Part shown: in pieces, positions 975 through 38,951 of the stretch | Numbering within the stretch: the first letter of the stretch is position 1 | How the letters are laid out: every line of letters starts with the position of its first letter | Assembly (NCBI RefSeq): GCF_004102725.1 | Contig: NZ_LHQS01000003.1 | Span: forward strand, 62,001-126,000 | Length of the DNA stretch: 64,000 bases | Reading direction: 5' to 3' | Source of the DNA: Methanoculleus taiwanensis | GTDB taxonomy: Archaea; Halobacteriota; Methanomicrobia; Methanomicrobiales; Methanoculleaceae | Program-made: the position numbers and the translations under genes | Notes under the pieces: model-generated | Seen by the model: only the letters and a program-made list of their open reading frames with translations | Databases searched by the model: none | What the model was told of the DNA's origin: nothing

Positions 975-1592
975 GTGCCTCTGACGCGATCGGGTCTGCT
1001 CTTCGCAGCGGTCATTCTTGCCCTGTATGCCGGTATCACCGCAGCTGTGCTGACGTCGCCCTATGGAGATCCGCTCAATGTCATGGTACGGCTCCTTGCC
1101 CTCTGGGGCTTCATCGCTCTCTCCATCGCGACGATTCTGACCCCGTTTCTCCGGGATATCCGGCGGGTGTTCGGCAGGCCGTTTCTTGCGGTCCACCATA
1201 CCTTTGCCGCCGTCGGCATCCTCCTCCCGACGCTCCACCCGGTGGCCGCTGCCATCAACGCGGCAGACCTGGCCGTCTTCATCCCGGTCTTCAGCCCCTG
1301 GACTACCTTCTGGGTGCTCGCGGGGAGGCCCGCGCTCTATATCCTCTACATCGCCCTCGCAGGCGTGCTGCTCCGAACGTATATCCGGGAGTACTGGCGG
1401 TGGGTGCACGGCCTGATGTACGTCGCGCTCGTCCTCGCCGTCGTTCACGGGAACCTGATCGGGACCGACTTTCAGAGCCCGATCGTGCGATGGACTATCA
1501 ATACGCTCTTCGTCCTCACCATCGCAACCTTCGTTATCCGGCGGTGGCAGATGATGACGCGGGCGAAGAAGAGAAGACCACAGAGTGCCTGA
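975..1592 (+). CDS. Ferric reductase-like transmembrane protein (MsrQ/YedZ-like)
   Basis: 205 residues with five to six transmembrane helices. The start is GTG at 975, preceded closely by a CAGGAG ribosome-binding site. His residues lie in helices where heme-binding His are found in the ferric reductase-like domain (FLAVHHTFAAVGILLPTLHP and RWVHGLMYVALVLAVVHGN), so a b-type cytochrome is likely. In bacteria this fold passes electrons across the membrane (MsrQ for periplasmic methionine sulfoxide reductase). No MsrP partner or FAD/NAD domain is encoded beside it, so the redox partner is unknown. The C-terminus is basic (RAKKRRPQS) and probably cytoplasmic. Its 3' end overlaps only the possible upstream start (GTG 1585) of the next gene. 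Confidence 0.75.
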   Translation: MPLTRSGLLFAAVILALYAGITAAVLTSPYGDPLNVMVRLLALWGFIALSIATILTPFLRDIRRVFGRPFLAVHHTFAAVGILLPTLHPVAAAINAADLAVFIPVFSPWTTFWVLAGRPALYILYIALAGVLLRTYIREYWRWVHGLMYVALVLAVVHGNLIGTDFQSPIVRWTINTLFVLTIATFVIRRWQMMTRAKKRRPQSA

Positions 1593-1623
1593 AGGGTCAC
1601 CGACCGGGAAGGACGAGTCTCCC

Positions 1624-2448
1624 ATGAAGCGACGCTACCCGTTCCTGCTGTCCATCCCCCACAGAGGGGAAGTGATCCCGCCCGAGGTGCAGGGCCGGAC
1701 CGCGATCACGAGGAGGGACATCCTCTACACGGGCGACCCCGAGACCCGGCGGCTCTATAACTTCAGGAAGCACGTCGCAGCCTGCAGCACGACCGAGATA
1801 GCCCGGCTGATCGTCGACCTCAACCGGGCACCCTACTACGCCCCGTTCATGAGCCCCGACGGCATCATTAAAAGGGTCACTCACGAGGGCGTGCCCGTCT
1901 ACCGGGAGGGGATGTACCCTGACCGGAGGCTGATCCGGGAGCTTCTCGCGAAGTACTACTACCCCTATCACCGGGATCTCCTGGCGGCGCTGAAGACCGG
2001 GAACATCCGGCTCGCGCTCGACTGCCACAGCATGCTCCCGTATCCGCCTCCCATGGCAGGGGGCGAGAAGCGCCCCCGGCCGCTCTTCTGCCTCAGCAAC
2101 GGAGGAGACCTGCAGGGAAAGCCGACACGGAGCGGCACCGTCACCTGCCCGCCCGCGTGGCTCTCGGCACTCGCCGAAGCATTCCGGGAGGAGTTCCGGG
2201 GCGAAGGGGATGTAGCGCTCAACAATCCCTTCCGCGGAGGGTTCATCTCCCAGGCACACTACCGGCATACCGGCGTCCCCTGGATTCAGATCGAGATCAA
2301 TCGCGGAATCTACGAGAGCGACGGCATCTTCGAGCCTGAACGAGGTTCTGTCGACAAATCCCGGATCCGCGACCTCTCAGGCAGGATCTTCTCGGCGATC
2401 GCGTCCTTCTGGAACAGTCTGCCCGATGAAGAAACAGGCACCGATTGA
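1624..2448 (+). CDS. N-formylglutamate amidohydrolase-like protein
   Basis: 274 residues from ATG 1624 (GGAAGG about 11 bases upstream); a GTG at 1585 would add 13 residues without family similarity. The N-terminus FLLSIPHRGEVIP is the conserved 'lisiPHgG..iP' motif of the family, and LALDCHSML and IQIEINRGIY correspond to the later conserved 'vDlHS' and 'vq.Ei.r..Y' motifs that provide a metal-binding His/Glu set. The family hydrolyses N-formylglutamate to glutamate and formate in histidine degradation, but no hut gene is near, and many archaeal homologues are of unknown substrate. The product is cytosolic. Confidence 0.8.
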   Translation: MKRRYPFLLSIPHRGEVIPPEVQGRTAITRRDILYTGDPETRRLYNFRKHVAACSTTEIARLIVDLNRAPYYAPFMSPDGIIKRVTHEGVPVYREGMYPDRRLIRELLAKYYYPYHRDLLAALKTGNIRLALDCHSMLPYPPPMAGGEKRPRPLFCLSNGGDLQGKPTRSGTVTCPPAWLSALAEAFREEFRGEGDVALNNPFRGGFISQAHYRHTGVPWIQIEINRGIYESDGIFEPERGSVDKSRIRDLSGRIFSAIASFWNSLPDEETGTD

Positions 2449-2578
2449 GCGGTCGGGCACTGTGATCCACTGCTCACGTAAAACGCTCTCATGCCCTTTG
2501 AAGTCGGAAATTCACCACAAAATACGAGATCCTGCCGGGCAGGAGATACTATGTCGGATGGGGATCAATAATAGAGTG

Positions 2579-3832
2579 ATGGCTCCGATCCGCCTGATCC
2601 TCGAGCGATACTTCGGACACCGCGAGTTCCAGCCCTATCAGGAAGAGATCATCGGCGATCTCCTCAAAAAGCGGGACGTCCTTGCGGTGCTGGCAACCGG
2701 CGGGGGCAAGTCACTCTGCTACCAGCTGCCAGCCCTCCTCGGTGACGGGACGACGCTCGTCGTCTCGCCGCTCATCGCGCTCATGAAGGATCAGGTGGAC
2801 GAGCTCCAGGCACGCGGCGTTGCAGCCGAGTCGCTGAACAGCTCGGTCTCTTACACGAAGCTCCGGCAGATCACAACCGATCTTGCGGAGAACCGGATCT
2901 CGCTCCTCTATCTCTCCCCGGAGCGGGCGGTGAGCCGGGAATTTTTAAAAGCCATTGCAGACGTCCGGATCTCGCTGATCGCCATCGATGAGGCGCACTG
3001 CATCTCCATGTGGGGACACCAGTTCAGACCGGAGTACAGGGATCTCCGCCTCCTGAAAGAGCGATTCCCGGACACACCCGTCGTCGCCCTGACGGCGACC
3101 GCGACCCCCGATGTCCGGGAGGATATCATACGGCAACTCAATCTCTGCGACCCGAAGGTCTACGTCGGCACCTTCGACCGCAAAAACCTCCGCTACTCCG
3201 TCGAGCGCCGGGGTGCCGACGTCTACTCCCGGATACGGGCGTACCTGCAGCAGCACCCGGGAGAGGCCGGGATCGTCTACTGTGCGACCAGAGACCAGAC
3301 GGAATCGCTCGCCCGCAGGCTCAAAGAGGACGGATTTTTAGCCCTCCCCTACCATGCGGGCCTCAGCACACGGATGCGGTCCCGGGCACAGGAGCAGTTC
3401 CTCGCCGGAGAGATACCGATCATCGCTGCAACAACAGCCTTCGGGATGGGGATCGATAAGCAGGACGTGCGGTTTGTCATGCACGACGGCATGCCCCGCG
3501 ACCTCGAGGCCTACTACCAGGAGACCGGAAGAGCCGGGCGGGACGGAAAGCCGGGCGACTGTATCCTCTTCTACGACGAAGAGGATGAGCGGCGGATAAG
3601 GCAGCTGATCGCCCGCGATTATAGCAGCGAGCTGCAGCGGGAGATTGCACGAAAGAAACTCGATGCATTCTCCGGGTACTGTAAAACGACGGAGTGCCGG
3701 CGAAGGTGGATCCTCTCATACTTCGGCGAAGAGAACGGAAAAGAGAGATGTGGTGCCTGCGACAACTGCACCCAAAAAAGGAGAGCGAAAAAAAGCGGTT
3801 CCCGTGCCGCACCCCGGGCAGGCATCATTTAA
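2579..3832 (+). CDS. recQ: RecQ family ATP-dependent DNA helicase, short form
   Basis: About 417 residues from ATG 2579, chosen because RecQ proteins start just before the F-G-h-..-F-Q-p-Q-E motif (RYFGHREFQPYQEEI); ATGs at 2558 and 2426 are upstream alternatives. Visible helicase motifs are Walker A (ATGGGKSLCYQ), DEAH box (AIDEAHCISMWGHQFRPEY, the RecQ-specific aromatic loop), TATAT (motif III), AFGMGIDKQDVRFVMH (motif V) and QETGRAGRDG (motif VI). A four-Cys zinc module follows (CKTTECRRRW...CGACDNC). The protein stops about 20 basic residues later, so the winged-helix and HRDC domains of bacterial RecQ are missing. It unwinds recombination and repair intermediates 3' to 5'. Confidence 0.93.
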   Translation: MAPIRLILERYFGHREFQPYQEEIIGDLLKKRDVLAVLATGGGKSLCYQLPALLGDGTTLVVSPLIALMKDQVDELQARGVAAESLNSSVSYTKLRQITTDLAENRISLLYLSPERAVSREFLKAIADVRISLIAIDEAHCISMWGHQFRPEYRDLRLLKERFPDTPVVALTATATPDVREDIIRQLNLCDPKVYVGTFDRKNLRYSVERRGADVYSRIRAYLQQHPGEAGIVYCATRDQTESLARRLKEDGFLALPYHAGLSTRMRSRAQEQFLAGEIPIIAATTAFGMGIDKQDVRFVMHDGMPRDLEAYYQETGRAGRDGKPGDCILFYDEEDERRIRQLIARDYSSELQREIARKKLDAFSGYCKTTECRRRWILSYFGEENGKERCGACDNCTQKRRAKKSGSRAAPRAGII

Positions 3833-3859
3833 TACCGGACCTGACAGAGAGTACTGCTC

Positions 3860-4045
3860 ATGAAGAAGTTGACACGCTCACGAAACGACCGGATGGTTGC
3901 CGGCGTCATAGGCGGGCTCGGGGAATACTTCAACGTAGATGCAAACCTCATCCGGGTGTTATGGGTCATCATCACCGTCTTTACGGGTTTCATCCCCGGG
4001 ATCGTCGCCTACCTCCTCCTCTGGCTCATCCTCCCGCAGGAGTAG
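3860..4045 (+). CDS. PspC domain protein
   Basis: 61 residues, consisting of almost nothing but one PspC domain: an N-terminal KKLTRSRNDRMVAGVIGGLG motif, then EYFNVDANLIRVLWVIITVF and a second hydrophobic stretch ending LLWLILPQE, the canonical domain ending. In bacteria PspC domains sit in the inner membrane and take part in phage-shock and envelope-stress responses. No PspA or toxin-like partner is adjacent. It lies 27 bases after recQ on the same strand and converges on uvrB. Confidence 0.9.
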   Translation: MKKLTRSRNDRMVAGVIGGLGEYFNVDANLIRVLWVIITVFTGFIPGIVAYLLLWLILPQE

Positions 4046-4113
4046 AGCGACCCGGCTCCGAAGAGGGGTTTGACGGGATCCCCGCAGCCCTCTCCGGGAT
4101 ATAAACCGCCCGA

Positions 4114-6054
4114 TCACTCGGGGAGAGCGGGAACACCATGCTCCCGCAGTTTTTTGATCGTCTCCCGCACCGCAATAGCCCGTTCGAAGTCGAGCCTCTC
4201 CGCGGCCTCCCGCATCTCCGCCTCGAGTTCGATGAGCAGATTCGGGATCTCGCGTTTCGGGATATGCTTGACATCGGTTATCTCGACGACTTTCTCCCGG
4301 ATCGGTTTTTTGATCGTCTGCGGCGTGATCTTGTGCTTCCGGTTGTAAGCGAGCTGTATCGCACGCCGCCGCTCGGTCTCCGCCATCGCCCGCCGGATGG
4401 AATCGGTCACTGTATCGGCGTAGAGGACGACCCGCGAGTTCACGTTCCGGGCGGCTCTGCCGATGATCTGGATCAGGCTCCGGGCATCACGGAGGAACCC
4501 TTCCTTATCGGCGTCGAGGATCCCGATGAACCCGACCTCCGGGATATCGAGCCCTTCACGCAGGAGGTTGATCCCGACGAGGACATCGTACCTGCCGAGA
4601 CGGAGCTGGCGGATGATCTCGGTCCTCTCAAGCGTATCGATCTCGGAGTGGAGGTAGCGGGTCTTGATCCCCTGCGCCGCGAGGTGCTCGCTCAGCTCCT
4701 CGGCGAGTCTCTTCGTCAGCGTGGTGAGGAGGATCCGGTCGCCCCGCTCGATCGTCGAGCGGATCTCGCCGATGACGTCCCTGATCTGCCCCTCAATAGG
4801 CCGGATCTCAACGGCCGGGTCGACAAGGCCCGTCGGCCGGATGATCTGCTCCGCGACCTTCGATCGCTCGAGCTCGTACTCGCCCGGCGTCGCCGAGACG
4901 AAGATGACGGACTGCATATACCGCTGGAACTCGTCGAACTTCAGCGGCCGGTTGTCGAATGCGGACGGGAGCCGAAACCCGTACTCCACGAGCGACTTCT
5001 TCCGCGAGTAGTCGCCGTGATACATCGCCCGGAGCTGGGGGAGCGTCTGGTGGCTCTCGTCGATCACCATCAGAAAGTCTTTCGGGAAGTAGTCGAGCAG
5101 GCAGTAAGGTTTCTCGCCCGCAGCCCTGCCGTCGAAGTGGCGGGAGTAGTTCTCGATCCCCTTGCAGCTGCCCGTCTCCTCGATCATCTCGAGGTCGTAG
5201 AGCGTCCGCTGCTCGAGACGGTGCGCCTCGAGCATGCCGAGGTTCGGGAGCCAGGCATCGAGTTCTGTCCTGATGGATGCGACCGCCCGCATCTTCTCCT
5301 GCTCCGGGATGACGAAATGGCGTGCCGGGTAGACGTAGAAGTACTCCATCTGCTCGAGGCGCTGGCCGGTGACGCGGTCGACCTCGCTGATACGGTCGAC
5401 CTCGTCGCCGAAGAGCTCTATCCGGATGATGTTGTTGAAGTACCCGGGGACGATATCGACGGTATCGCCCTTCACCCGGAACCTGCCGGGCGCGAGCTCG
5501 ACATCGTTCCTCTCGAACAGGATGTCGACGAGCCTTCGGAGGAGGTCGTCCCGCCGGAGGCGGTCACGCACCTTCACCTCGAACCCCATGTTGTAGAAGT
5601 GCTCGGGGTTGCCGAGACCGTAGATGCAGGAGACCGAGGCGACGACGATGACGTCCCTCCGGGAGAGGAGAGACGCCGTCGCCGCAAGCCGCATCTGCTC
5701 GATCTTTGGGTTGATCTGGGCATCCTTCTCGATGTACATATCCCTCTTCGGGATGTACGACTCGGGCTGGTAGTAGTCGTAGTAGGAGACGAAGTACTCC
5801 ACCCGGTTCTCCGGGAAGAAGTCCCGGAACTCGTTGTAGAGCTGGGCGGCGAGCGTCTTGTTATGGGCGATCACCAGCGTAGGCCGCTGCGCTTCTTCAA
5901 TCACGTTCGCTATCGTAAACGTCTTCCCGGACCCCGTGACGCCGAGCAGCGTCTGGAACTGCTCGCTCCGGGCAAGCCCGGCGGAGAGTTTCCCGATAGC
6001 CTCGGGCTGCGAACCTTTCGGGGTAAAGTCGTCGGTGAGGTGAAATTCGGTCAT
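4114..6054 (-). CDS. uvrB: Excinuclease ABC subunit UvrB
   Basis: 646 residues, full length. Walker A is GVTGSGKTFTIANV near residues 39-52; the beta-hairpin region YYDYYQPESYIP that inserts between DNA strands is intact; motif II is DESHQTLPQLRAM; motifs V/VI are LLREGLDIPEVGF and QIIGRAARN. The C-terminus carries a UVR motif (ELEAEMREAAERLDFERAI) that binds UvrC. UvrB verifies damage handed over by UvrA and positions UvrC. Its ATG overlaps the uvrC stop by four bases (ATGA), so it is the last gene of a uvrA-uvrC-uvrB operon. Confidence 0.98.
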   Translation of the reverse strand: MTEFHLTDDFTPKGSQPEAIGKLSAGLARSEQFQTLLGVTGSGKTFTIANVIEEAQRPTLVIAHNKTLAAQLYNEFRDFFPENRVEYFVSYYDYYQPESYIPKRDMYIEKDAQINPKIEQMRLAATASLLSRRDVIVVASVSCIYGLGNPEHFYNMGFEVKVRDRLRRDDLLRRLVDILFERNDVELAPGRFRVKGDTVDIVPGYFNNIIRIELFGDEVDRISEVDRVTGQRLEQMEYFYVYPARHFVIPEQEKMRAVASIRTELDAWLPNLGMLEAHRLEQRTLYDLEMIEETGSCKGIENYSRHFDGRAAGEKPYCLLDYFPKDFLMVIDESHQTLPQLRAMYHGDYSRKKSLVEYGFRLPSAFDNRPLKFDEFQRYMQSVIFVSATPGEYELERSKVAEQIIRPTGLVDPAVEIRPIEGQIRDVIGEIRSTIERGDRILLTTLTKRLAEELSEHLAAQGIKTRYLHSEIDTLERTEIIRQLRLGRYDVLVGINLLREGLDIPEVGFIGILDADKEGFLRDARSLIQIIGRAARNVNSRVVLYADTVTDSIRRAMAETERRRAIQLAYNRKHKITPQTIKKPIREKVVEITDVKHIPKREIPNLLIELEAEMREAAERLDFERAIAVRETIKKLREHGVPALPE

Positions 6055-7601
6055 GATACCATCGCCTTCTTCCGGAGCGTCTTATGATACGCCAGTGCGA
6101 ACCGGTGCGCCTCGTCCCGGATCTCCTGGATGAAGAGGGACGCCTTCTCCCGCCGGTTCAGGGGGAGGGGATCCGACTCTCCGGGCACGTAAATCTCCTC
6201 CTCACGCTTGGCGATCCCGATTATCGGGATCACAAGGCCGAGGTTCCCGAGCTCCGCCGTCGCCGCCGAGAGCTGCCCCTTGCCGCCGTCGATGACGATC
6301 AGGTCGGGGAGCTCCCTGCCCTCGTCCTTCTGGCGTGCGTACCGCCGCCGCACGACCTCGGCCATCGCCGCGAAGTCGTCGATCCCCTTCACCGAGCGGA
6401 TCCTGAACCTGCGGTAGTTCCTCTTGTCGGGCCTCCCGTCCCGGAACTGCACCATCGACCCAACCATCGCCGTCCCGGCGAGGTGGGAGATGTCGAAGCA
6501 CTCGATGACGGTCGGGATCTTCGAAAGGTTGAGGAGCTCCCGGAGCGCCTCGAGTTTTATCCGGTCGCCGAAGAACCCGATCTCGATATTCTTCCGAACA
6601 AGGTCGAGGAGTTTCTTCTTCTCTCCCCGCTGTGGAACGGTCGTCCGCACCCGATTCCCCCGCAGGTGCGTAAGGTACCCGGCGATAGATTCGTCGACGG
6701 GCTCCGGGAGGATCAGTTCCTTCGGCGGTTCACGCTCCGCGTAGTACCTGGCGAGGAACTCTTCAAGGAATCCCTCGGCGTACTCGAAGACGAACTCGTG
6801 CTTCTCGGCGAGCATCCCCGTATGGACGTTAAAGAGCATGAGGTAGACCGTGCCCTCGCTCACGATGTAGTTGATCACGTCCTCGTCATAGGTCTTCTGC
6901 CGCTGCACGTTCTGCCGTTCGGTAAGCCGTTCGAGCGCGGCGATCTGGTCGCGAAGCTCGAGCGCTTTTTCGAACTCGTCGCCTGCCGCCCGCTCGGCCA
7001 TCTCCACCCGCAGGTGCTGGATCAGCCCGACGATGTCCCCTTTCAGCACCGCCTCCGCCCGCCGGACGCGCTCGCCGTACTCCTCTTCCGTAATCTTCCC
7101 GATGCACGGAGCGCTGCACGAGCCGATGTGCGACCGGAGGCACGCCCGTTTCGGGAGCTGTCTGCACGACCGCAGGCGGAATGTGGTTTTGAGGAGCCGC
7201 AGAACCTCGTCACGCTCCCGGGCGGAGACGAACGGCCCGTAGAACGACCCGGTACCTGTCATCGTCCGGCTGATATGGATACGCGGGAAGGGCTCGTCGG
7301 TGACCCGTATATAGGCGTAGCCCTTCGAGTCCTTGAGATCGATGTTGAACTTCGGCCGGTGCTTCTTGATGAGGGTATTTTCGAGGAGGAGCGCCTCGAC
7401 CTCGGTATCGGTGACGATGAAGTCAACGGAGACGGCGGTTTCCACCATTCGACGTGTCTTTGCGTCGAGATCGCGCTTTTGGAAGTAGCTCGAAACCCTC
7501 TTCTTCAGGTTCTTCGCTTTCCCCACGTAGATGACAGCGCCCTCGCTATCCGAGAAGAGGTAGCAGCCGGGGTCCTCCGGAATCCGCGCACGATCGATCA
7601 T
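6051..7601 (-). CDS. uvrC: Excinuclease ABC subunit UvrC, lacking the C-terminal HhH domain
   Basis: 516 residues. The N-terminal GIY-YIG nuclease (GCYLFSDSEGAVIYVGKAKN) makes the 3' incision; a UVR motif (LRVEMAERAAGDEFEKALEL) binds UvrB; the RNase H-like C-terminal nuclease is recognised from IECFDISHLAGTAMVGSMV and VIDGGKGQLSAA and makes the 5' incision. The protein ends at RDEAHRFALAYHKTLRKKA, the point where most UvrC proteins continue into a tandem helix-hairpin-helix domain, so that DNA-binding module is absent. It overlaps uvrA by four bases upstream and uvrB by four bases downstream. Confidence 0.97.
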   Translation of the reverse strand: MIDRARIPEDPGCYLFSDSEGAVIYVGKAKNLKKRVSSYFQKRDLDAKTRRMVETAVSVDFIVTDTEVEALLLENTLIKKHRPKFNIDLKDSKGYAYIRVTDEPFPRIHISRTMTGTGSFYGPFVSARERDEVLRLLKTTFRLRSCRQLPKRACLRSHIGSCSAPCIGKITEEEYGERVRRAEAVLKGDIVGLIQHLRVEMAERAAGDEFEKALELRDQIAALERLTERQNVQRQKTYDEDVINYIVSEGTVYLMLFNVHTGMLAEKHEFVFEYAEGFLEEFLARYYAEREPPKELILPEPVDESIAGYLTHLRGNRVRTTVPQRGEKKKLLDLVRKNIEIGFFGDRIKLEALRELLNLSKIPTVIECFDISHLAGTAMVGSMVQFRDGRPDKRNYRRFRIRSVKGIDDFAAMAEVVRRRYARQKDEGRELPDLIVIDGGKGQLSAATAELGNLGLVIPIIGIAKREEEIYVPGESDPLPLNRREKASLFIQEIRDEAHRFALAYHKTLRKKAMVS

Positions 7602-10405
7602 TGTCCTGCAAGAACCTTTCTGAGATACTCTCCAGTATAACTTTCGTCGACGGCTGCGACCGCTTCGGGCGTTCCGGTCGCGACGATCTCGCCTCCGCTT
7701 TCACCGCCCTCTGGCCCGAGATCGATAATGTAGTCGGCCGACTTGATGACGTCGAGGTTGTGTTCGATAACGACCATGGTGTTCCCGCGGGCCACGAGGT
7801 CGTCGAGGACGGCGATCAGGTTCTTCACGTCATGGAAGTGAAGCCCGGTGGTGGGTTCGTCGAGGAGGTATATCGTCTTCCCGGTTGCCCGTTTCGCAAG
7901 CTCGCGGGTCAGTTTGATCCGCTGCGCCTCGCCGCCCGAGAGCGTCGTCGAGCTCTGCCCGAGTTTGATGTAGCCGAGCCCGACCCGCGAGAGCGTCTCG
8001 AGTTTGTTCCTGATCGAGGGGATATTCTCAAAGAGCGCCATCGCCTCCTCGACGCTCATGGCAAGGACGTCGGCGATTGATTTCCCGCGGTACCGCACCT
8101 CGAGCGTCTCCCGGTTGTACCGTGCTCCCTTGCACTCCTCGCAGTCGATGTAGACGTCGGGGAGGAAGTTCATCTCGATCTTGATGAGCCCTTCGCCCTG
8201 GCACGCCTCGCAGCGTCCGCCCTTGACGTTGAAGGAGAACCGACCCGGCTTGTAGCCGCGGACCTTCGCCTCCGTCGTCTCGGCGAAGACCTTCCGGATC
8301 TCGTCAAAGACCTTCGTGTAGGTGGCGGGGTTCGACCGGGGCGTCCTCCCTATCGGGCTCTGATCGATGACGATCACCTTGTCGATCTCGTCGTCGAAGG
8401 CGAGATCGTCGAACGCGCCCGGCGACTCCCGGGACGCATGGAGCCGCTGCATCAGGGCGCGGTAGAGCGTCTCGTAGACGAGCGTCGACTTCCCGCTCCC
8501 CGAGACGCCGGTGACGGCGGTCAGCGCCCCGATAGGGATAGCGACGTCGATATCTTTGAGGTTGTTCTCCCGGCAGCCGCGGAGCCGGATGAACCGGTCG
8601 CTCTCCCGGCGCTCCTCCGGCACTTCAATAGCAAGCTCGCCGGCAAGGTACCTCCCGGTCAGGGACTCGGGATCCGCCGCGATCTCTTCGGGCGTGCCTG
8701 CGGCGACGATCTCTCCACCGTGGAGCCCGGCTCCCGGCCCCATATCGACGACGTAGTCGGCGCTCCGGATCGTATCCTCGTCGTGCTCGACGACGATCAG
8801 GGTATTGCCGAGGTCGCGGAGGCGCCGGAGCGTGTCGAGAAGCTTGTGATTGTCCCGCTGGTGAAGCCCGATCGAGGGCTCGTCGAGGACGTAGAGCACC
8901 CCGGTGAGGTTCGAGCCGATCTGGGTCGCAAGCCGTATCCGCTGCGCCTCGCCGCCGGAGAGCGTGCCCGCGCTCCGGGAGAGAGTGAGGTAACCGACCC
9001 CGACCGTCTCGAGGAAGGCGAGACGGTCGACGATCTCCTTTAGAACCTGCCGCGCAATCTCGCGCTGGCTCTCGGTGAGATTCAGGGTCCTAAAGAACTC
9101 CCCTGCCCGGGTGATCGAGAGAGCAGTGACGTCGACGATGGACATCCCGTCGATCTTGACGGCGAGCACCTTCTCCTTCAGCCGTTTGCCGCCGCACCGG
9201 GGGCACGGCGATATCCGCATGAACCGCTCGAGGTCTCTGCGGCGGTACTCCGACTGGGTCTGGTGGTAGAGCCGCTCCGCCTGGGGTGCGAGCCCCTCCC
9301 AGGTTCCTGCGTGCGACCAGTGGGCATCTCCGTTCTTCATCTCCATCGAGAACCGGATCCGCTCTGGAGACCCGAACATCAGGGCGTTGTACTGCCGCTC
9401 GGTCAGATCCTGTATCGGGGTGAAGACATCGAATCCGAAATGTTTTGCAACGCCGCCGAGATACTGGCTCCGGTAGCCGTCGAGGAAGTTCCGATACAGC
9501 GCCACCGCACCGTCGGCGATGGATTTCGTCTTGTCGGGGATGATGAGAACGGGGTCGAACTCCATCTTAATCCCAAGGCCGTTGCACTCCTCGCAGGCGC
9601 CGAAGGGGCTGTTGAAGGAGAACATGCGAGGCTGGAGTTCCTCAAACGCGATCCCGCAGAGCGGGCAGGCCATCAGGGAGGAGTAGACCTCTTCGCGCCC
9701 GTCCTCGTCGACAGCGATGATGAGCCCCTCAGACTTTGCAAGGGCATTTTCACATGCCTCGACGAGACGGCTCCTATCGGCCGGATCGAGCCGGTCTATG
9801 ACGATCTCGATATCGTGCTTCCGGTACCGGTCGAGCGTGATCTCATCGTCGGTTCGGTAAAACTCCCCGTTCACCCGCACCCGGGTATACCCTTCCTTGT
9901 TGAGATCCTTGAAGAGCTGCTGGTACGTGCCCTTCTTCTGCCGGACGACCGGAGCGAGGATGGTGATCGTGCCGTTCATCCCGAAAGCGATCCGGTCGGC
10001 TATTCTCTCCGGCGACTGCGCCTCGATCGGAATCCCGTGGGTCGGGCAGAAAGGCGTCCCGATACGGGCAAACAGAAGCCGCAGGTAATCGTAGATCTCG
10101 GTAACGGTTCCGACGGTACTCCGGGGGTTTTTGGAGGTGGTCTTCTGCTCGATGGAGATCGCCGGGGAGAGCCCGTCGATGCTGTCGACGTCCGGTTTGC
10201 TCATCAGGCCGAGGAACTGCCGGGCGTATGAGGAGAGCGACTCGACGTACCTCCGCTGCCCTTCAGCGTATATGGTATCGAACGCAAGCGTCGACTTTCC
10301 GCTCCCCGAGACGCCGGTGACGACGATCAGGTTGTCACGGGGGAGCTCGACGGTGATATTCCTGAGGTTGTGTTCCCGTGCACCTTTGATGACGATATTC
10401 TTCAT
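7598..10405 (-). CDS. uvrA: Excinuclease ABC subunit UvrA
   Basis: 935 residues from the ATG at 10405; an in-frame ATG 23 codons upstream precedes the conserved [15 protein letters not shown] start and overlaps the promoter. Two ABC ATPase modules are present: Walker [20 protein letters not shown] near residue 30 and [16 protein letters not shown] in the second half, each with [12 protein letters not shown] / [12 protein letters not shown] signatures. Zinc-finger Cys pairs are visible (CPLCG...[21 protein letters not shown]...CEECKG). UvrA scans DNA for distortions and loads UvrB. It heads the operon and overlaps uvrC by four bases. Confidence 0.98.
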
Positions 10406-30952: not shown

Positions 30953-31768
30953 TTAGTTTGTTGAAGATTTTACCGCATCGGAGATGTGACGGACGCCCTT
31001 TGCGGTCAGCTGGATCTCTTTTCTGACACAGATGACCTCGGCGACACCGAGCGAGAGGAGCTTTTCATAGATTGCATCGAGCTCTTTCTGGGAGATCTGG
31101 AGCATATTCTCTATGGCGTGCGAATCCATCCCACTGTAGACCAGCATCGCAACCTGTGCCGTAACCGGGTCGAGCGCTTCGGCGGGCTCGGAGTCCTGCG
31201 TGGCCTCTTTTAAGAAATTATACAGAACCTGCAGCGTCGTGAGCGGGCAGAGGACGAAACTCGTCACCACCTCGTTATCGATGAGGTGATCGATCTTGAC
31301 CACATCGAGTTCCTTCTCCTGGATCTCGCGTGACGTAAGACTGATGCTCGCCACCTCCCCGAGGGGAATGCAGACCTGCTTATTCGGGCTTACAAACCAG
31401 ATCCCGGTCTTGAGGACGGCAATAGCACCCTTCTCCCACTGGGCGTTCTGAACCAGCACGCCTCCTCGTATCGCCGGCGACATGAAGAATGCGTTCAGCC
31501 GGTAGGCGCTGCAGGACATGATGACGAACTTCTTCACAACCTCGAGGACTTTATCGACGGATGCTATCCGATACGTCCGTTCGGATTCGCCGCCGGTCGT
31601 TATGGAGACCTGATTCTTCTTCTGCTCGAGGTCGACTATCGATTTATAAAGGATCTCCGCCGAGACGGGCGCCCCGATCGTGATCCGATCTTCTGCGATG
31701 CCCATCCGGGTAGGGACCCACGCCCCTTCATGTTCAACCTTAATCGGAACTTCCTTCATAGCATCCAC
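30953..31768 (-). CDS. cheF: Taxis protein CheF
   Basis: 271 residues; start at ATG 31768 or the ATG three codons later. The body has the strand-rich fold of archaeal CheF (DUF439): PTRMGIAEDRITIG, AFFMSPAIRGGVLVQNAQWEKGAIAVLKTGIWFVSPNK, IPLGEVASISL. Residues 200-265 form a winged helix (DPVTAQVAMLVYSGMDSHAIENMLQISQ, GVAEVICVRKEIQLTAKG) that some family members carry. CheF links phosphorylated CheY to the ArlCDE switch ring of the archaellum. The gene sits exactly between archaellum and chemotaxis genes, as expected of an adaptor. Confidence 0.92.
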   Translation of the reverse strand: MDAMKEVPIKVEHEGAWVPTRMGIAEDRITIGAPVSAEILYKSIVDLEQKKNQVSITTGGESERTYRIASVDKVLEVVKKFVIMSCSAYRLNAFFMSPAIRGGVLVQNAQWEKGAIAVLKTGIWFVSPNKQVCIPLGEVASISLTSREIQEKELDVVKIDHLIDNEVVTSFVLCPLTTLQVLYNFLKEATQDSEPAEALDPVTAQVAMLVYSGMDSHAIENMLQISQKELDAIYEKLLSLGVAEVICVRKEIQLTAKGVRHISDAVKSSTN

Positions 31769-31783
31769 CTCGTCCCGGTGACG

Positions 31784-32956
31784 TCAGTGTTTCGGCCTCA
31801 TCGCCCGCAGCAGATCCTCCATCTCATCGGCGAGCTCCTTCCCGCTGAACTTCATGCCTTTCAGATCCCGGAGGAGACTGACATCTTCGACCGCTTTCCG
31901 TTTCTTGACGTCGGATTTGAGCTCTGCGAGGAGATCGTCGTCGGCAAGGCCTCCCGAAGCAAAGGAGACCATATCGAAATCCTCGGGTTCCTCTTCCTCC
32001 TCGACCTCCTCCTCGTCGGGCTCCTCGGGCTCCGGGATGAAAGCCGCGAGCCCTCCTGCCCCCGAACCGCTCTCATCCTCGATCTCGATCTCATCGAGGT
32101 CTATCTCATCGAGATCGCCGAGTTCCCCGCCGAGGATGTCGCCGACTGCGTCCGATTCAAGCCCTCCGAGCATATCCACCGGGAGTGCGGCCTCCGGTGC
32201 GGGCATGCTCGCCAGCCGCGCACGCTCTTTTGGAGCAGCCGGTGCGGAGGGGAACCCTTCCGACGGCTCGCTCCCAAGATCGAAGTCGGGCGGCAGATCG
32301 AGATCATCAAGTTCGTCCTGATGCGCCTTGAGGATATCGGAGACAGCACTCTCATCCTCAGCAGAGAGCGCCGAAACCTGCCCGGTGCTGAACTTCGAGG
32401 CGATCCGCGAGACCTCGCCGTCGAGATCGAGATCGTCGAGCGATGAGGTGTCGAGCTCATCAAGAGCGCTGAGCGGATCGTCCACCCTCCCTCTTCCAGC
32501 GGTGGGCGCTACCACGCTCTCCGGCTCCTCGATTGGATCATGGATCGCCTTATCGAGCATCTCGTCGATCTTGCCGAGCTCCGCCCTCTTCTCGTGCTCG
32601 GGCGCACGGCTCTTCACGACGGTCTTTTTGAGAGACGCAATGAATGCCGCGAGGATAGCCACGACCTGCTGCAGGGCTCCCCGTATATCGGGGATGCGCC
32701 GGGAAGCCTTCGCACTGGCTTTCGTCGGTTTCGGTGCGTGTGCTTTTCGCCGCCGCATCGCCACCCGCACCGAGGCTGCGAGCCGGGAGGGGTGGAGATC
32801 GGCGACCGGCAACGCGCCGGTGCCAAGCAGCATCAGAAAGCCAGCCAGCACGGTTCCGGCGATGATCACGATCGGCGGGATGTCAAAGAGGATCAGCAGC
32901 GACCCTGCGGTGACCGTTACCAGAAAGAGTACCGGGCGGCGAAACTTCTCTTTCAT
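31784..32956 (-). CDS. Acidic membrane-anchored protein between flaJ and cheF
   Basis: 390 residues. Two N-terminal hydrophobic helices (residues about 9-27 and 28-46: FLVTVTAGSLLILFDIPPIVII / AGTVLAGFLMLLGTGALPV) are followed by a basic stretch (RVAMRRRKAHAPKP), then by 250 residues rich in Asp, Glu, Ser and Pro, including an almost pure acidic patch near residues 315-335. The last 45 residues are a predicted amphipathic helical tail (LLAELKSDVKKRKAVEDVSLLRDLKG...). It overlaps nothing but lies only one base after flaJ and 15 before cheF. No family recognised. It may be a membrane-tethered adaptor of the archaellum switch. Confidence 0.85.
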   Translation of the reverse strand: MKEKFRRPVLFLVTVTAGSLLILFDIPPIVIIAGTVLAGFLMLLGTGALPVADLHPSRLAASVRVAMRRRKAHAPKPTKASAKASRRIPDIRGALQQVVAILAAFIASLKKTVVKSRAPEHEKRAELGKIDEMLDKAIHDPIEEPESVVAPTAGRGRVDDPLSALDELDTSSLDDLDLDGEVSRIASKFSTGQVSALSAEDESAVSDILKAHQDELDDLDLPPDFDLGSEPSEGFPSAPAAPKERARLASMPAPEAALPVDMLGGLESDAVGDILGGELGDLDEIDLDEIEIEDESGSGAGGLAAFIPEPEEPDEEEVEEEEEPEDFDMVSFASGGLADDDLLAELKSDVKKRKAVEDVSLLRDLKGMKFSGKELADEMEDLLRAMRPKH

Positions 32957-32957
32957 G

Positions 32958-34556
32958 TCAAACAGCTCCGAATGTAGGTATGTTGAAGAATATCCCCACC
33001 AGGATTGGGGCGATCACAAAGATAATACCGGTGATGGTGCAGAGCAGGCTCCCGAAAAAGTAGTACATGTACCGGTCTCCGCCGGCGACGATCTTGCCGG
33101 CGAGGGTGTTGCTGATCGTCAGGAGCACGCAGATCGTCACCACGTACGTCGACATCTCGGCCTCGGGGAAGTCGGTGAAGAAGTTCATCGCCCCCGCCAT
33201 GCTGCCGCTGATCGAGGAGGAACTCCCCGAGAGGGCGCTTGTCGCCTCATTGAACGTCTCGAGCACCGCCGTCACGGCTTTCGACATGGTGAGGAGGATC
33301 TCAAAAAGGAAGACGAAAATACCGACCATCGCCCCGTGCATGGGGATGAGCAGCACCACGAACCCCTTCACGAGCATATCGCGCTTGCGCCGCAGGAGAA
33401 CCTGCTCAAGCATCGACGAGCCGACGATCTTGCCGATCCTGTCGGCGGATCCGCCGAGAGAGACTGCATCGCGGAAGATGTTCATGTACTTGTAGATGAG
33501 ATTGCTCCCGGTCTCGCCGATGAACCGCTTCCAGCTCCCCCCCTCGTCGATGCCGAGGTTGAGCTTCGAGGTGACGGAGTTGATGAACGGTTCGAGGTTC
33601 GTTAAGGATTTCTTGTCGATCTCCTGCAGGGCGTCCGCGGTCGTGATCCCTTTCCCGCCCATGACCGACCCGAGGCTCCGGATAAACGTGGAGAAATCCT
33701 CGTCGCGGTTAACGACATTGTCGTCGTCGATGTACCCGATGATCCCGAGCGGCATGATGAGCAGCCCTACGAGCAAGAAGATGACGCCTGCGTTCACGCC
33801 GATGATGATCAGGATCAGGCATATCGCCGCCACCACGGGAAGAACCATCCGCTCCATGCGTCGTATCGTCGCCTGCTCCCGCGAGCAGACATCGGCGAGA
33901 CCGTGGGTCTTCTGATCGTCGGGAACCGCCTTGTACATGATCGCGAGCCCGAACCCGGATATGGCGACGATGATCATATACGAGGTGTTGAGCGCCGACT
34001 CGATCCCGTCGGGAGCGTAGATCGCGACCGAGATCATGATGATGATCGCAACGAGCGTGCCGGAGAGGAGCATCGCAAGGTAGGCATCTCCCCATTTCTT
34101 TAACATCTCGACACCCTGCTCGAAGGTGTTCCGGTAGATCTCCCGAACCGTCGAGAGTTCGGTCCCGATGAAGTCGTCGTCGGGAACACCCGAGTCGATG
34201 GAGTTTGCGTAGCGGTTGAGCATGCTCTGGAGCGTCTCGTTCCTGCACTTCTCGGCGATGACGCGGAGCCCGTCCGCATAACTGTACCCCCACCCCTTCA
34301 CGAGGCGCTCGACCTTCGCGATGTACCGGGTCGGGACGTACTCGAACCGTTCTGCCGTATAGCCGAAGATCTCGGGACGGGTGACCGACGCCGTGGTGAT
34401 CGCCGCCATGTAGGTGTACATGAAGAGGAGGTCCTGCCCCATCTTCTTGTTCTCAAGAAGCCTCTCCTGCAGGCTCCCGAGGGATTTGAGCTGATCCTCA
34501 AACGGCAGCTGGCCTTTGTTCGCCTCACGGAGCCGGTCGGTGACGTCCTCGAACAT
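32958..34556 (-). CDS. flaJ: Archaellum assembly protein FlaJ/ArlJ (membrane platform)
   Basis: 532 residues with about nine membrane helices and two large cytoplasmic loops typical of the type II secretion F superfamily in archaella. Recognisable parts are AYLAMLLSGTLVAIIIMISVA, FGLAIMYKAVP, VVAAICLILIIIGVNAGVIF, GGSADRIGKIVGSSMLEQ and RKRDMLVKGFVVLLIPMHG. FlaJ is the membrane core on which FlaI acts to insert archaellins and turn the filament. One base separates its start from the end of flaI. Confidence 0.96.
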   Translation of the reverse strand: MFEDVTDRLREANKGQLPFEDQLKSLGSLQERLLENKKMGQDLLFMYTYMAAITTASVTRPEIFGYTAERFEYVPTRYIAKVERLVKGWGYSYADGLRVIAEKCRNETLQSMLNRYANSIDSGVPDDDFIGTELSTVREIYRNTFEQGVEMLKKWGDAYLAMLLSGTLVAIIIMISVAIYAPDGIESALNTSYMIIVAISGFGLAIMYKAVPDDQKTHGLADVCSREQATIRRMERMVLPVVAAICLILIIIGVNAGVIFLLVGLLIMPLGIIGYIDDDNVVNRDEDFSTFIRSLGSVMGGKGITTADALQEIDKKSLTNLEPFINSVTSKLNLGIDEGGSWKRFIGETGSNLIYKYMNIFRDAVSLGGSADRIGKIVGSSMLEQVLLRRKRDMLVKGFVVLLIPMHGAMVGIFVFLFEILLTMSKAVTAVLETFNEATSALSGSSSSISGSMAGAMNFFTDFPEAEMSTYVVTICVLLTISNTLAGKIVAGGDRYMYYFFGSLLCTITGIIFVIAPILVGIFFNIPTFGAV

Positions 34557-34557
34557 C

Positions 34558-36417
34558 TCATACCTCGATGGTGAGCAGTCCCTGCTTCTTGATCTTCGTG
34601 GTCATATGGAAGAGATCCCAGAACTGGGTGTACCCCGCCTTATGCAGCCGTTCGAGGATCTTCGCCCGTTTTTCGACCTCGTTGTACATCTCGGCGCGTT
34701 TATTCTCCGGGATGCCGAGCATAGAGGCGATCTTGTTCTCGAGGAGGTAGCTGCTTCCCTTGCCCGTGAACGTGAACGAGTCGGTGACCGGATCCCAGAC
34801 GAACGCCGCAAGGAACGAGAAACCCTGGGTCTCGGGATCGAACCCCACGAGCTCGTTGATGCTCAGCATCCGCCGCACCGTCCCTCCCCCGGGGAGTTTC
34901 ACCGCGCTCTGGATGATCACGAGGTTTAAATTATCCACATAGGTCTTTGGAATAAGGATCGGGTCTCCGCAGAGACGCTGGATCAGTTTCTCGACCGACG
35001 CCGCGTGGAAGGTGCTCATCACCGGGTGGCCGGTCTGCATGGCCGAGAAGGCGACGCTCCCCTCGATACCACGGATCTCACCGACGAGGATCTGGTTCGG
35101 ACGCTGACGGAGGGCGGCTTTTAAGAGATCGAACATCGTGACATCTGACCCCTCGCCTTCCCCCTTCCCTTTTCCTTTCGCGACCTCGCGGCTCCAGTTC
35201 TTGTGCGGCACCGTGAGCTCGGGGGTATCCTCGATCGTGACGATCTTATTCTCCGGCGAGAGGAACGTCGTCAGCGCGTTGAGCGACGTCGTCTTGCCGC
35301 TCGCGGTCTCCCCGCTCACGAACATCGACATGCCGTACTCGAGGCAGATCCAGAGGTAGCCGGCCATCATGTAGTCGCAGGCGCCGCTCTCGATCACCTG
35401 CAGGATGCTTAACGGCACCTCGTTGACCTTACGGATCGTGAAGTTGCTGCCGTGCTTGCTGATCTCGGTGCCGTAGACGATGTTGATACGCGACCCGTCC
35501 GGGAGCGTCGCATCGACGATCGGATTTCGGTAGGTGAGCGGCTTTTTAATCCGTTCTGCGAGCTTGATGACGAATTTGTCGAGTTCTCCCGAATCCTGGA
35601 AGCCGACGACCGACTTTAAGCCCTTGAAGATCTTATGCTCGATGAAGATTGGCCCGACGCCGTCGCAGGTGATATCCTCGATGTACTCGTCGCTGAGGAA
35701 GGGTTTGAGCGTCCCGAGTTCGATCTTGTCCCGCACCATGAGGTACTCGAGCGCCTTGTACTCCTGCTGCGTAAGGATGATCCGCCCGTCCGCCATCTGG
35801 GGTACCGCGGCCTGGTGCTTCTGGATCTTCCCCTTCGCACCGATATCGGAGTTGAGAAACTGCTTGATCCTGGCTTTCAGGTCTTTCGGCGTCCCTCCGG
35901 CAAGCCGTGACTCGTCGATCGCCTCGCCGGGCTGCTTGACGTAGATGACCTGGCTGATGAACTTCTTTAAGACCTCCGCCCGCGCCTTCTCGGTCACCGG
36001 TTCCTCCTCCATGGCGTCGATCATGTCGATCAACTTCTGCTCCACGTGGGGGAGGAAGTCCTTGACACTGTGGAGAAACGACGGCTCTATCGGAATGTAC
36101 CAGTTCCGGACGTCGTTCGGGTCGGGGAAGATGTGGACGAAGGTCGTATCGTTGACCGGATAGATGATATTCGGGTTTTCCATCGACTTTAGGTCTCGCT
36201 TCAGCTCCGAGAGGAAGAGCGGGATCCCGACGGTGTTGACGGGGAGGATATGGAGGTACTCGAGGAGGTGCGGGCTGTCCTTGACGTACTCGCGGGCATT
36301 GGCCGGCAGCATCCGGTAGAGGGCGCAGGACTCGACGTTGTTGTAGCAGTCGTTTCCTTCGTCGATGAACTCCGGTTCGAAGGGGAGGGCAACCGATGCC
36401 GTGAGCGATGCCGTCAT
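34558..36417 (-). CDS. flaI: Archaellum motor ATPase FlaI/ArlI
   Basis: 619 residues. Type II/IV secretion ATPase: N-domain of about 200 residues, then IEDITCDGVGPIFIEH (N-terminal signature), Walker A SGETASGKTTSLNAL, Asp box TIEDTPELTVP, Walker B QILVGEIRGIEGSVAFSAMQTGHPVMSTFHA with the His box. The C-terminal 130 residues (AGYTQFWDLFHM) are typical of archaellar rather than pilin ATPases. It drives filament assembly and rotation. It follows flaH by four bases. Confidence 0.97.
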   Translation of the reverse strand: MTASLTASVALPFEPEFIDEGNDCYNNVESCALYRMLPANAREYVKDSPHLLEYLHILPVNTVGIPLFLSELKRDLKSMENPNIIYPVNDTTFVHIFPDPNDVRNWYIPIEPSFLHSVKDFLPHVEQKLIDMIDAMEEEPVTEKARAEVLKKFISQVIYVKQPGEAIDESRLAGGTPKDLKARIKQFLNSDIGAKGKIQKHQAAVPQMADGRIILTQQEYKALEYLMVRDKIELGTLKPFLSDEYIEDITCDGVGPIFIEHKIFKGLKSVVGFQDSGELDKFVIKLAERIKKPLTYRNPIVDATLPDGSRINIVYGTEISKHGSNFTIRKVNEVPLSILQVIESGACDYMMAGYLWICLEYGMSMFVSGETASGKTTSLNALTTFLSPENKIVTIEDTPELTVPHKNWSREVAKGKGKGEGEGSDVTMFDLLKAALRQRPNQILVGEIRGIEGSVAFSAMQTGHPVMSTFHAASVEKLIQRLCGDPILIPKTYVDNLNLVIIQSAVKLPGGGTVRRMLSINELVGFDPETQGFSFLAAFVWDPVTDSFTFTGKGSSYLLENKIASMLGIPENKRAEMYNEVEKRAKILERLHKAGYTQFWDLFHMTTKIKKQGLLTIEV

Positions 36418-36421
36418 GGAT

Positions 36422-37177
36422 CTACACCTTTGCGACGGAGACCGGGATGATCTTGATCCCGTATCCGGGGTGGACTTCGAAGCTGACGATGTTTCCGGTC
36501 GTCTTACGCGCTCCCCTGACTTTCACGACCTCGAGCATCATCACGTACTTGCCGCCGACGAGCGCCTTCTTCATGAAGAGGTGGGCGTCGCAGATCGACC
36601 GTATCCGGACGAGTGCGTCCTCGACGAAGGCGTAGGTATGCAGCGTGATCAGGATCGTCTTGCCGTGGTCGACGAGGTGCTTGCAGTTCGTGAAGAAGGT
36701 GAGCACCGTATCCTGCTGCGCGTACTCGGTGAAGAGCGTCAAGGAGTCGATGATGATCACTTCAGCGCGGCTCCGCTCGATGAACCCGATCATCCGCTCG
36801 AGGGTGCCCTGCATCTTCTCCTTCGTCCACTCGAACCCGACGACGTGCATCGGAAAGACCCGGAGGTAGCCCCAGGCGAAGTACTCGGAGATGTCGAGGC
36901 TCATCGACTCCATCTGCGAGAGGAAACTCTTGCTCGTATTCTCGGTCGAGAAGAGGTCGACGTTGAACCCCTGCTTGAGCGCCCCCCAGACGATCTGCTG
37001 GGTGAGCACGCTCTTGCCCGTATCGTTCTCGCCCTCGATCAGCGAGAGCGACTGGAGCGGGAGACCGTCGGCGATCTTCTTGTCGAGTTCGGAGTTCCCG
37101 GTCGAGAGGATGGTCTGCCCATGCATCTCGCCGTATCCATCGTCGCTGTCGTAACTGCTTGCGGGCATGTCGTTCAC
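36422..37177 (-). CDS. flaH: Archaellum regulatory ATPase FlaH/ArlH
   Basis: 251 residues, RecA/KaiC-like. Walker A is GENDTGKSVLTQQIVW near residue 45, Walker B is EVIIIDSLTLF near residue 130. No second, catalytic Glu is apparent, in line with FlaH binding ATP but hydrolysing it poorly. FlaH forms a ring under FlaI and couples ATP state to the motor. It is translationally adjacent (no gap) to the FlaF-like gene before it. Confidence 0.96.
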   Translation of the reverse strand: MNDMPASSYDSDDGYGEMHGQTILSTGNSELDKKIADGLPLQSLSLIEGENDTGKSVLTQQIVWGALKQGFNVDLFSTENTSKSFLSQMESMSLDISEYFAWGYLRVFPMHVVGFEWTKEKMQGTLERMIGFIERSRAEVIIIDSLTLFTEYAQQDTVLTFFTNCKHLVDHGKTILITLHTYAFVEDALVRIRSICDAHLFMKKALVGGKYVMMLEVVKVRGARKTTGNIVSFEVHPGYGIKIIPVSVAKV

Positions 37178-37648
37178 CTAGATATATGCGGAGTCATAGA
37201 CGCCGTTCCCGGTCGTGACCTGCACCCAGGTCGGGTCGTCGCCGCTGTAGGGCACGGAGAGGTTCAGGACCTCCCCGGGATCAAGCTGGTTCGGGTGGAT
37301 CTGATCGGGGCTGATGGCAACGACGGTCCAGTTCGTCCCGTAGGGGTTGTAGATCGGAGAGCCGCTGGTGACGAGGTAGACGTCCATATGGGCAAAACTC
37401 ACGATCGGCTCGTTCCCGCTGTTCTCGACCTCGACATAGAGCACCTTTCCTGCTGCATCGAGGGACGTGGCAGCGACATCGATATTCGTCCGCATCCGCA
37501 TCTCCTGCTGGATGGCAAGGTCGCCCTGCGCCATGACGACGAGCTCCGCCGTGCCGAGGGTGCCCCCGACGAGGATATACGCCGTGATGACCAGCAGGAG
37601 AATGCCGATCCCCGAAGCGACGAGCGATCCGACGCTCATGTCAATCAC
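37178..37648 (-). CDS. flaF: Archaellum stator-like protein, FlaF family (ArlF/G-type)
   Basis: 156 residues. A single N-terminal helix (VASGIGILLLVITAYILVGG) precedes a beta-sandwich with KVLYVEVENSGNEPIVSFAHMDVYLV, the archaellin-like fold of stator proteins FlaF and FlaG. FlaF contacts the S-layer, FlaG forms filaments between membrane and S-layer. The assignment to FlaF is tentative and based on the order and on the helix pattern; FlaG is possible. It overlaps the upstream partner by eight bases. Confidence 0.8.
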   Translation of the reverse strand: MIDMSVGSLVASGIGILLLVITAYILVGGTLGTAELVVMAQGDLAIQQEMRMRTNIDVAATSLDAAGKVLYVEVENSGNEPIVSFAHMDVYLVTSGSPIYNPYGTNWTVVAISPDQIHPNQLDPGEVLNLSVPYSGDDPTWVQVTTGNGVYDSAYI

Positions 37649-38144
37649 TTACCGTAAACTCGGTCGACCGCGAAAGACCCGTCATCAGGACGAACTGGAA
37701 GTAGGCAACACTGCCGGAGGCGTCCGGAAGATCGGTCGTCTGCCCCGTGATGTGGAGGGTCTCGCCGGCATCCCAGTAGCCGTTCGCACTGCTCTCCGCG
37801 ATCGCGTACGTCCACTCCCCATCCGCCACCACACCGGCCGTATACGACAGCCGATCGAAATCACCGACCGCCCCGAGGAAGACGTCGCTATCCTCGAGGT
37901 CGGTCTCCGCGATCCGCTGCGTTCCGACGTTCTTGATCCAGATCTCGGCCTTCTCCGACGCAGCACTCGCGTAGGTCGTCACGATCTTCACGTCGACCCG
38001 CAGCCGCTCGTCCGCCTGGTGCGTCGAGGAGGCGATGGTGTCCGAGAGCGTGTAGATGACCGGGAAGATAGCGTTAATGAGTACGCCGGCCGAAATGATC
38101 GCGGCCATCAGGAACATTGCGGTGGTGAAGGTTTCGCTCGACAT
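37641..38144 (-). CDS. flaG: Archaellum stator-like protein, FlaG family (ArlG/F-type)
   Basis: 167 residues. The N-terminus MSSETFTTAMFLMAAIISAGVLI followed by IYTLSDTIASSTHQADERLR matches the euryarchaeal FlaG helix and its 'd...d.s..aderlrtd' neck; a beta domain with AEIWIKNVGTQRIAETDLEDSDVFL follows. FlaG and FlaF together form the static part of the archaellum motor outside the membrane. The order FlaG then FlaF is inferred. It overlaps the flaF-like gene by eight bases. Confidence 0.8.
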   Translation of the reverse strand: MSSETFTTAMFLMAAIISAGVLINAIFPVIYTLSDTIASSTHQADERLRVDVKIVTTYASAASEKAEIWIKNVGTQRIAETDLEDSDVFLGAVGDFDRLSYTAGVVADGEWTYAIAESSANGYWDAGETLHITGQTTDLPDASGSVAYFQFVLMTGLSRSTEFTVSD

Positions 38145-38147
38145 CCA

Positions 38148-38951
38148 TCATATCCTGTCCAGCATCTCGAGCCATTCGTCACCAGTATACTTGTCTTTCG
38201 GCGTAACTTTTCCGTCCCGGCCCTTTTCGCCGGACTGCATCCGCTGGACCATCAATACCTCGATCATATCGCGGTCGAGCGAGGAGTCGCCGGGGTCGAG
38301 GATCCGGTTCAGGACGTAGAGCTCGGAGACGAACTCGTTCGGCCCGATCTCCTGGAGGTCACCGCGGGTGGGGGGTATCATCCGGATGATCTCTTTGATC
38401 TGATCGGCGGAGCCTTCCGCGATGTAGCCCATCGTCAGGTAGGCGTCGATCATCATCTCGAACCGCTCGTGCCCGAACTTCTTGCAGCTCTTGTGCGTCC
38501 AGTCGAAGAGCTGATGCACCTTCTGGAGTTTCAGCTTCTCGGGGGGCTTTGGCGCGCTCTCGGCGGGCGGGGCGAACTGCCCTGCGGGAAGGCCGAACGC
38601 TTCGGGGGGCGAAAGCACGGGCTCTTTCTGCATGCCGGCAAATCCGTTCGCGAGATCGAACCCGAGCGGCTCGTCCGCATCGTGCTCCTCGATCTCGTGC
38701 TCCTTCCACGCCTCCGGTTCGTCCTCTCTTCCGCCCTCCGGCAGCATCGGAGCGGATGGTATTCTGCTGAAAGCAGTATTTGAGAAGGGATTGTCGAGTT
38801 CGTTCATCCGTTCGCGGATATCGATGAGCAGGCGCTTTAAGGATGTCTTCATGAAGTCGAGCTCTTTCTCGAGGTTATCGAGCCGGACCTCAGGGTCCTC
38901 AGTCGACGCTCCGCTGAGGATCTTATCGATCTGTGCCTGGTCTACCCCCAT
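38148..38951 (-). CDS. flaD: Archaellum switch protein FlaD/E (ArlD/E)
   Basis: 267 residues. An N-terminal coiled coil (RLDNLEKELDFMKTSLKRLLIDIRERMNEL), an acidic/proline-rich linker (residues 70-140), and a C-terminal FlaD/E domain (LFDWTHKSCKKFGHERFEMMIDAYLTMGYIAEG, then LQEIGPNEFVSELYVLNRILDPGD). In euryarchaea FlaC/D/E build the cytosolic ring that receives CheF-CheY signals. The gene is the first of the archaellum operon here; no separate flaC is seen. Confidence 0.92.
   Translation of the reverse strand: MGVDQAQIDKILSGASTEDPEVRLDNLEKELDFMKTSLKRLLIDIRERMNELDNPFSNTAFSRIPSAPMLPEGGREDEPEAWKEHEIEEHDADEPLGFDLANGFAGMQKEPVLSPPEAFGLPAGQFAPPAESAPKPPEKLKLQKVHQLFDWTHKSCKKFGHERFEMMIDAYLTMGYIAEGSADQIKEIIRMIPPTRGDLQEIGPNEFVSELYVLNRILDPGDSSLDRDMIEVLMVQRMQSGEKGRDGKVTPKDKYTGDEWLEMLDRI

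Follow-up and report, generated by a model that had tools for sequence, protein, structure and literature searches.

In Crenarchaeota, ArlX is held in the membrane by a single helix, forms a ring around ArlI and ArlH with its cytosolic part, and binds both of them (PMC8978795). In Euryarchaeota it is replaced by ArlC, ArlD and ArlE, though these proteins have no membrane segment; none of the listed euryarchaeal motor parts (ArlB, C/D/E, F, G, H, I and J) is a cytoplasmic scaffold with a membrane anchor, and what keeps the soluble ArlC/D/E ring at the membrane is an unresolved question (PMC8978795). The statement in a preliminary description of the locus analysed here, that known archaellum models have no membrane-anchored partner of this kind, therefore holds for Euryarchaeota but not for Crenarchaeota, where the ring protein ArlX is anchored in the membrane (PMC8978795). 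Archaellum gene clusters are divided into fla1, with the order FlaF-FlaG and with flaC and flaD/E, and fla2, with the order FlaG-FlaF (Desmond et al. 2007, PMC1914349). Archaeoglobaceae possess fla1 in some members and fla2 in others (PMC4600277; PMC4858521).

The window (the whole 64,000-nt stretch of Methanoculleus taiwanensis DNA that was analysed) contains a cluster encoded on the minus strand in the order flaD-like, flaG, flaF, flaH, flaI, flaJ and a further gene, which we call X. The assignments are a soluble flaD/E-like gene (38148..38951; a weak PF04659 match, conserved in the clusters, no membrane helix by hydropathy), flaG-like (37641..38144; PF01917 and conserved order), flaF-like (37178..37648; position, and NF052590 ArlF with E 8e-8, which is below the cut-off of that model), flaH/arlH (36422..37177; PF06745, KaiC family), the ATPase gene flaI/arlI (34558..36417; PF00437) and the platform gene flaJ/arlJ (32958..34556; NCBIfam NF004703 ArlJ, E 3.4e-227). 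Because FlaG stands before FlaF, this is a fla2 cluster, and its order flaD-like, flaG, flaF, flaH is essentially common to the upstream regions of 20 genomes from several families. The first ~60 residues of the fla2 FlaD-like protein are strongly conserved (41-57% identity even in Archaeoglobaceae), while the remainder diverges and PF04659 barely detects it.

X (31784..32956, minus strand, 390 aa, ATG start) lies downstream of flaJ and upstream of cheF, the latter belonging to the downstream che block (30953..31768, minus strand; PF04283, E 4e-13). The reported gap of 1 nt to flaJ stands, and in the window an SD-like GGAG stands ahead of the X start, within the last part of flaJ; the reported 15 nt to cheF applies to a GTG start, but the distance is 24 nt from the in-frame ATG at 31759, which is the start used by most relatives and the likelier one. 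Neither the window protein nor distant members of the family matched any Pfam or NCBIfam family or any PDB sequence, in agreement with the preliminary description, which recognised no family.

The architecture proposed there, with two N-terminal membrane helices, an Asp/Glu-rich linker and a helical C-terminal tail, was borne out by hydropathy, composition and structure prediction. Residues 8-47 (32816..32935, minus strand) form a two-helix membrane hairpin according to hydropathy, with AlphaFold helices at 3-23 and 28-46. The N-tail carries a net charge of +3 and the juxtamembrane part +9, and since both flanks are basic in the window protein, both ends of the hairpin are placed in the cytoplasm, i.e. 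the predicted topology is N-in/C-in with a cytosolic C-terminus. Helices around residues 91-140 end in a conserved KIDxxLDxA motif. They are followed by the acidic linker of ~200 residues (141-337; 31946..32536, minus strand), with 29% D+E, a net charge of -50 and mostly pLDDT < 60, which contains short conserved motifs (DPLSALDELD; SAVSDILKAHQDEL; LDEIDLDEIEIED). The C-terminal domain (residues 338-390; 31784..31945, minus strand) comprises two helices in the AlphaFold models; with ~50 residues and a core motif with near-invariant positions (DDLLxxLKxDxKK...DxSLLRDLKGxKxxAxDLxxELExLL) it is the most widely conserved part of X. The AlphaFold models of the window protein and of an Archaeoglobus homologue are of low confidence (pLDDT 62 each, pTM 0.24 and 0.17), and thus lend no support to any particular fold or docking mode; both show membrane helices at the N-terminus, a flexible middle part and the C-terminal helix pair. 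A Foldseek search of the low-confidence X model against the PDB reported nothing with E below 5. An N-terminal hydrophobic segment is present in all 81 X sequences (minimum hydropathy 1.77), whereas the maximum 19-residue hydropathy of the fla2 FlaD-like proteins, which are without a membrane segment, is 1.37. The number of membrane helices is two in Methanomicrobiales and one in the versions examined outside the order.

Within Methanomicrobiales, X was found in all 53 FlaJ-positive genomes and in none of the 8 FlaJ-negative ones (61 genomes; 49 of the 53 were identified by a single-sequence search, and G042, G046, G047 and G051 were added by a profile of the C-terminal domain). The Methanomicrobiales part of a phylum-wide sample gave the same picture (48/48 versus 0/7). 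X lies directly 3' of flaJ in 30/30 of the closest loci and in divergent loci of five further families, and its start falls between -14 and +4 nt from the flaJ stop in 44/45 loci. Every flaJ-positive relative examined has an ORF of the same architecture in this position, far beyond what chance would produce, and X is a real conserved gene.

Two genomes carry a damaged copy. In one (L044, G037:C1:2379300-2387600), X at 1147-4340 is split by an insertion carrying a DDE transposase (PF01609, E 4e-11) in a fla-che block that is otherwise complete, which makes it a natural disruption. In the other (L042, G050:C1:1362000-1371200), X is read at 3951-5215 in two overlapping frames in a single-contig genome; the split would be either a frameshift or a sequencing error.

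Such disruptions, together with low identity (57% to X of a same-genus relative versus 88% for FlaJ), are what might be expected if X merely travelled with the operon, evolving fast and playing no part in motility. However, X has persisted in several families and through repeated swaps of clusters, and positions in its C-terminal domain are near-invariant, which renders the passenger explanation very improbable.

The profile of the C-terminal domain was used to search 295 genomes of the phylum; one family gave E-values as low as 2e-12 and the matches in others were weaker, which extended the range of X to Archaeoglobaceae, Methanosarcinaceae, Methanoliparales and a Methanocella-like family. 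In nearly every neighbourhood, those of the Methanocella-like family included, the match adjoins the 3' end of flaJ in a fla2-type cluster. Named loci (GTDB genomes) collected through a FlaJ alignment have X directly after flaJ in Methanoculleus, Methanofollis, Methanolinea, Methanoregula and Methanogenium within the order, and in Archaeoglobus and other Archaeoglobaceae, Methanosarcina fla2A and Methanoliparum/Methanolliviera outside it. A prevalence of homologues at sites unrelated to archaellum or chemotaxis genes, which would have spoken against the preliminary description, was not observed. The sole clear departure from the post-flaJ position is G192, probably Archaeoglobus sulfaticallidus, in which X is located between flaH and flaI (L095, G192:C1:771000-783200, 5604-6260).

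In Methanosarcina fla2B and in "ANME-1-like" clusters (a family label guessed from the genome type), the slot after flaJ is occupied by soluble proteins with weak, in-register C-terminal similarity to X (hhalign P 1.8e-3 for fla2B and 1.7e-4 for the ANME-1-like proteins), which suggests that some versions may do without the membrane anchor. A candidate amphipathic N-terminal anchor in these soluble versions was not convincing in comparison with shuffled sequences.

Matches of the C-terminal profile with E near 0.002 were treated as chance: an ORF in G111 is a Csm4 (an ORF of equal length and score occurs in G073), and the other is an unassigned 673-aa ORF in G225. Away from flaJ, a 90-aa ORF in an Archaeoglobi MAG (L089, G301:C8:8200-20300, 5986-6258), with a cheD match within 6 kb, carries an extra copy of the C-terminal domain and is perhaps a remnant of a duplication.

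Because their members differ in cluster type, Archaeoglobaceae provide a natural experiment. X is present in 19/19 genomes with a fla2-type FlaJ and in 0/23 of those with fla1 only (fla1-type FlaJ was called with a haloarchaeal FlaJ query at E < 1e-70), and the cluster type switches within three genera (g54, g50 and g27). One genome, G288, has both FlaJ types and X, and is uninformative because of its contamination of 4%. The Fisher values are tiny, but they take no account of common descent, and the genome counts are not phylogenetically independent. X is thus encoded in the cluster in diverse lineages and tracks the fla2-type FlaJ, as would a component of the fla2 cluster.

The close tie to FlaJ invites the explanation that X is an assembly or quality-control factor of FlaJ, acting in its membrane insertion or dimerisation, and not a permanent part of the motor. 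In most genomes the start codon of X overlaps with the stop codon of flaJ or directly adjoins it, which suggests coupled translation, and the membrane hairpin and the tracking of fla2-type FlaJ agree with such a role. On the other hand, the long acidic arm with its conserved cytosolic tip suggests reaching or docking, and in G192 X is not beside flaJ; we regard a FlaJ factor as unlikely.

In the preliminary description X was suggested as a possible switch-complex component that connects the CheF-FlaD/E ring with FlaJ. An adaptor with CheF (and CheY-P) on one side and the FlaD-like ring and FlaJ on the other would fit the gene order of nearly all che-bearing Methanomicrobiales, in which X lies between flaJ and cheF, the presence of CheF in 18/19 fla2 Archaeoglobaceae, and the divergence of CheF in these genomes, where it forms a subfamily that scores weakly and partially on PF04283. 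The distribution argues otherwise, as X follows FlaJ and not CheF. At least 10 genomes with X have no detectable CheF, and they keep X with the full C-terminal domain: G038, G045, G053 and G058 in Methanomicrobiales; G192 in Archaeoglobaceae; G066, G075 and G093 (Methanoliparales-like); G095 (Methanocella-like); and G097 and G089 (Methanosarcinaceae-like). Not every assembly in this list is complete, but G045, G089 and G192 each consist of one contig with a completeness of 98-99%, and A. sulfaticallidus has been described as devoid of chemotaxis genes (PMC4600277). The CheF-less genomes G038 and G045 retain the flaD-like gene and have only a diverged CheA elsewhere. Conversely, four Archaeoglobaceae (G125, G261, G324 and G081) have CheF with a fla1 FlaJ and no X. 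The two genes adjoin in Methanomicrobiales only; in most Archaeoglobaceae CheF is encoded 2-5 kb beyond X, elsewhere or on another contig, so X is not confined to places where cheF and flaJ are adjacent. The occurrence of X without CheF and of CheF without X indicates that X belongs with the fla2 motor, to which chemotaxis is an add-on, and an adaptor for CheF appears quite improbable. What stands of the proposed switch-complex tether is a conserved membrane-anchored protein of the archaellum operon, likely a motor component; the link to CheF does not.

CheF itself shows two peculiarities. The proteins of fla2-bearing genomes match PF04283 weakly and partially (E 1e-12 to 1e-19) compared with fla1-type CheF (E down to 4e-61), and this diverged subfamily may go with the fla2 motor. 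In a Methanolinea genome (L114, G159:C22:6500-18500), two tandem cheF genes at 6108-7653 lie directly 3' of X.

A membrane anchor combined with a long flexible arm could also serve to connect the motor with the polar cap or with a system for polar positioning; in Euryarchaeota the polar cap is cytoplasmic, and how it is joined to the motor is unresolved (PMC8978795). The published reports of such caps concern Thermococcales and haloarchaea, whose clusters are of the fla1 type, and no X was seen after haloarchaeal-type FlaJ in the three loci examined, so that we assign a polar link a low probability.

Among described proteins, crenarchaeal ArlX (FlaX) resembles X in being encoded in the archaellum operon of fla2-type clusters and in having an N-terminal membrane segment with a remainder that is cytosolic, in X by prediction. 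The gene for crenarchaeal ArlX is located between the archaellin gene and flaG, whereas X follows flaJ and the archaellin-flaG slot is here held by the flaD-like gene; moreover, X has a long acidic linker (ArlX was compared by description and gene position). FlaC, FlaD and FlaE (ArlCDE, PF04659) are likewise acidic and act on the same, cytoplasmic, side of the motor as is proposed for X, but they are soluble and X is membrane-anchored. Homology of X to FlaD/E was considered and rejected, as profile-profile comparison with the fla2 FlaD-like family (hhalign) showed no similarity (probability 0.1-0.2) and X has no match to PF04659. The uncharacterised genes hyp1 and hyp2 of Desmond et al. (2007) occur in the same fla2 clusters, but lie between flaB and flaG and encode distant relatives of flaD, to which X, encoded after flaJ, is unrelated. 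CheF (PF04283) is a neighbour of X in Methanomicrobiales, but X has no Pfam match to CheF, which is not membrane-bound, and can be present without it.

Taken together, the genomic evidence strongly supports the assignment of X as a component of the archaellum, which we consider very probable. A part in the motor is likely because X is conserved, membrane-anchored and tied to the archaellum operon. Its more specific reading as a structural component of the euryarchaeal fla2 motor, tethering the cytoplasmic ring under FlaJ, has in our opinion about an even chance of being correct. The anchor, a hairpin or a single helix, would sit beside FlaJ, with the flexible acidic arm extending in the cytoplasm, and the C-terminal helical tip would dock on the motor ring, formed either by the FlaI/FlaH hexamers or by the soluble FlaD-like proteins, so that X would hold the ring under FlaJ as a stator or an assembly scaffold. 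X would thereby provide in trans the membrane anchor that is part of the crenarchaeal ArlX chain itself and is missing from soluble FlaC/D/E-type proteins, and CheF and chemotaxis would be optional inputs to the ring and not required partners of X. More tentatively, we speculate that X could be a torque-bearing, stator-like anchor, and that fla2 euryarchaeal motors might divide the anchor and ring roles of ArlX between two unrelated proteins.

We found no description of the gene after flaJ/arlJ in the open-access literature; the supplementary tables of Makarova 2016 lay outside this search and may list X as an unnamed arCOG, and a figure of Desmond et al. (2007) marks unnamed hypothetical genes in fla2 clusters (PMC1914349). 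We therefore rate X as a new component of a known machine and not as a categorically new system.

X can serve as a genomic marker that separates euryarchaeal fla2 motors from fla1 motors. Being conserved, membrane-anchored and travelling with fla2 clusters through repeated replacement, it is a direct candidate for the ring anchor, and it makes the question of how the ring is attached testable, for instance in Methanosarcina or Methanoculleus.
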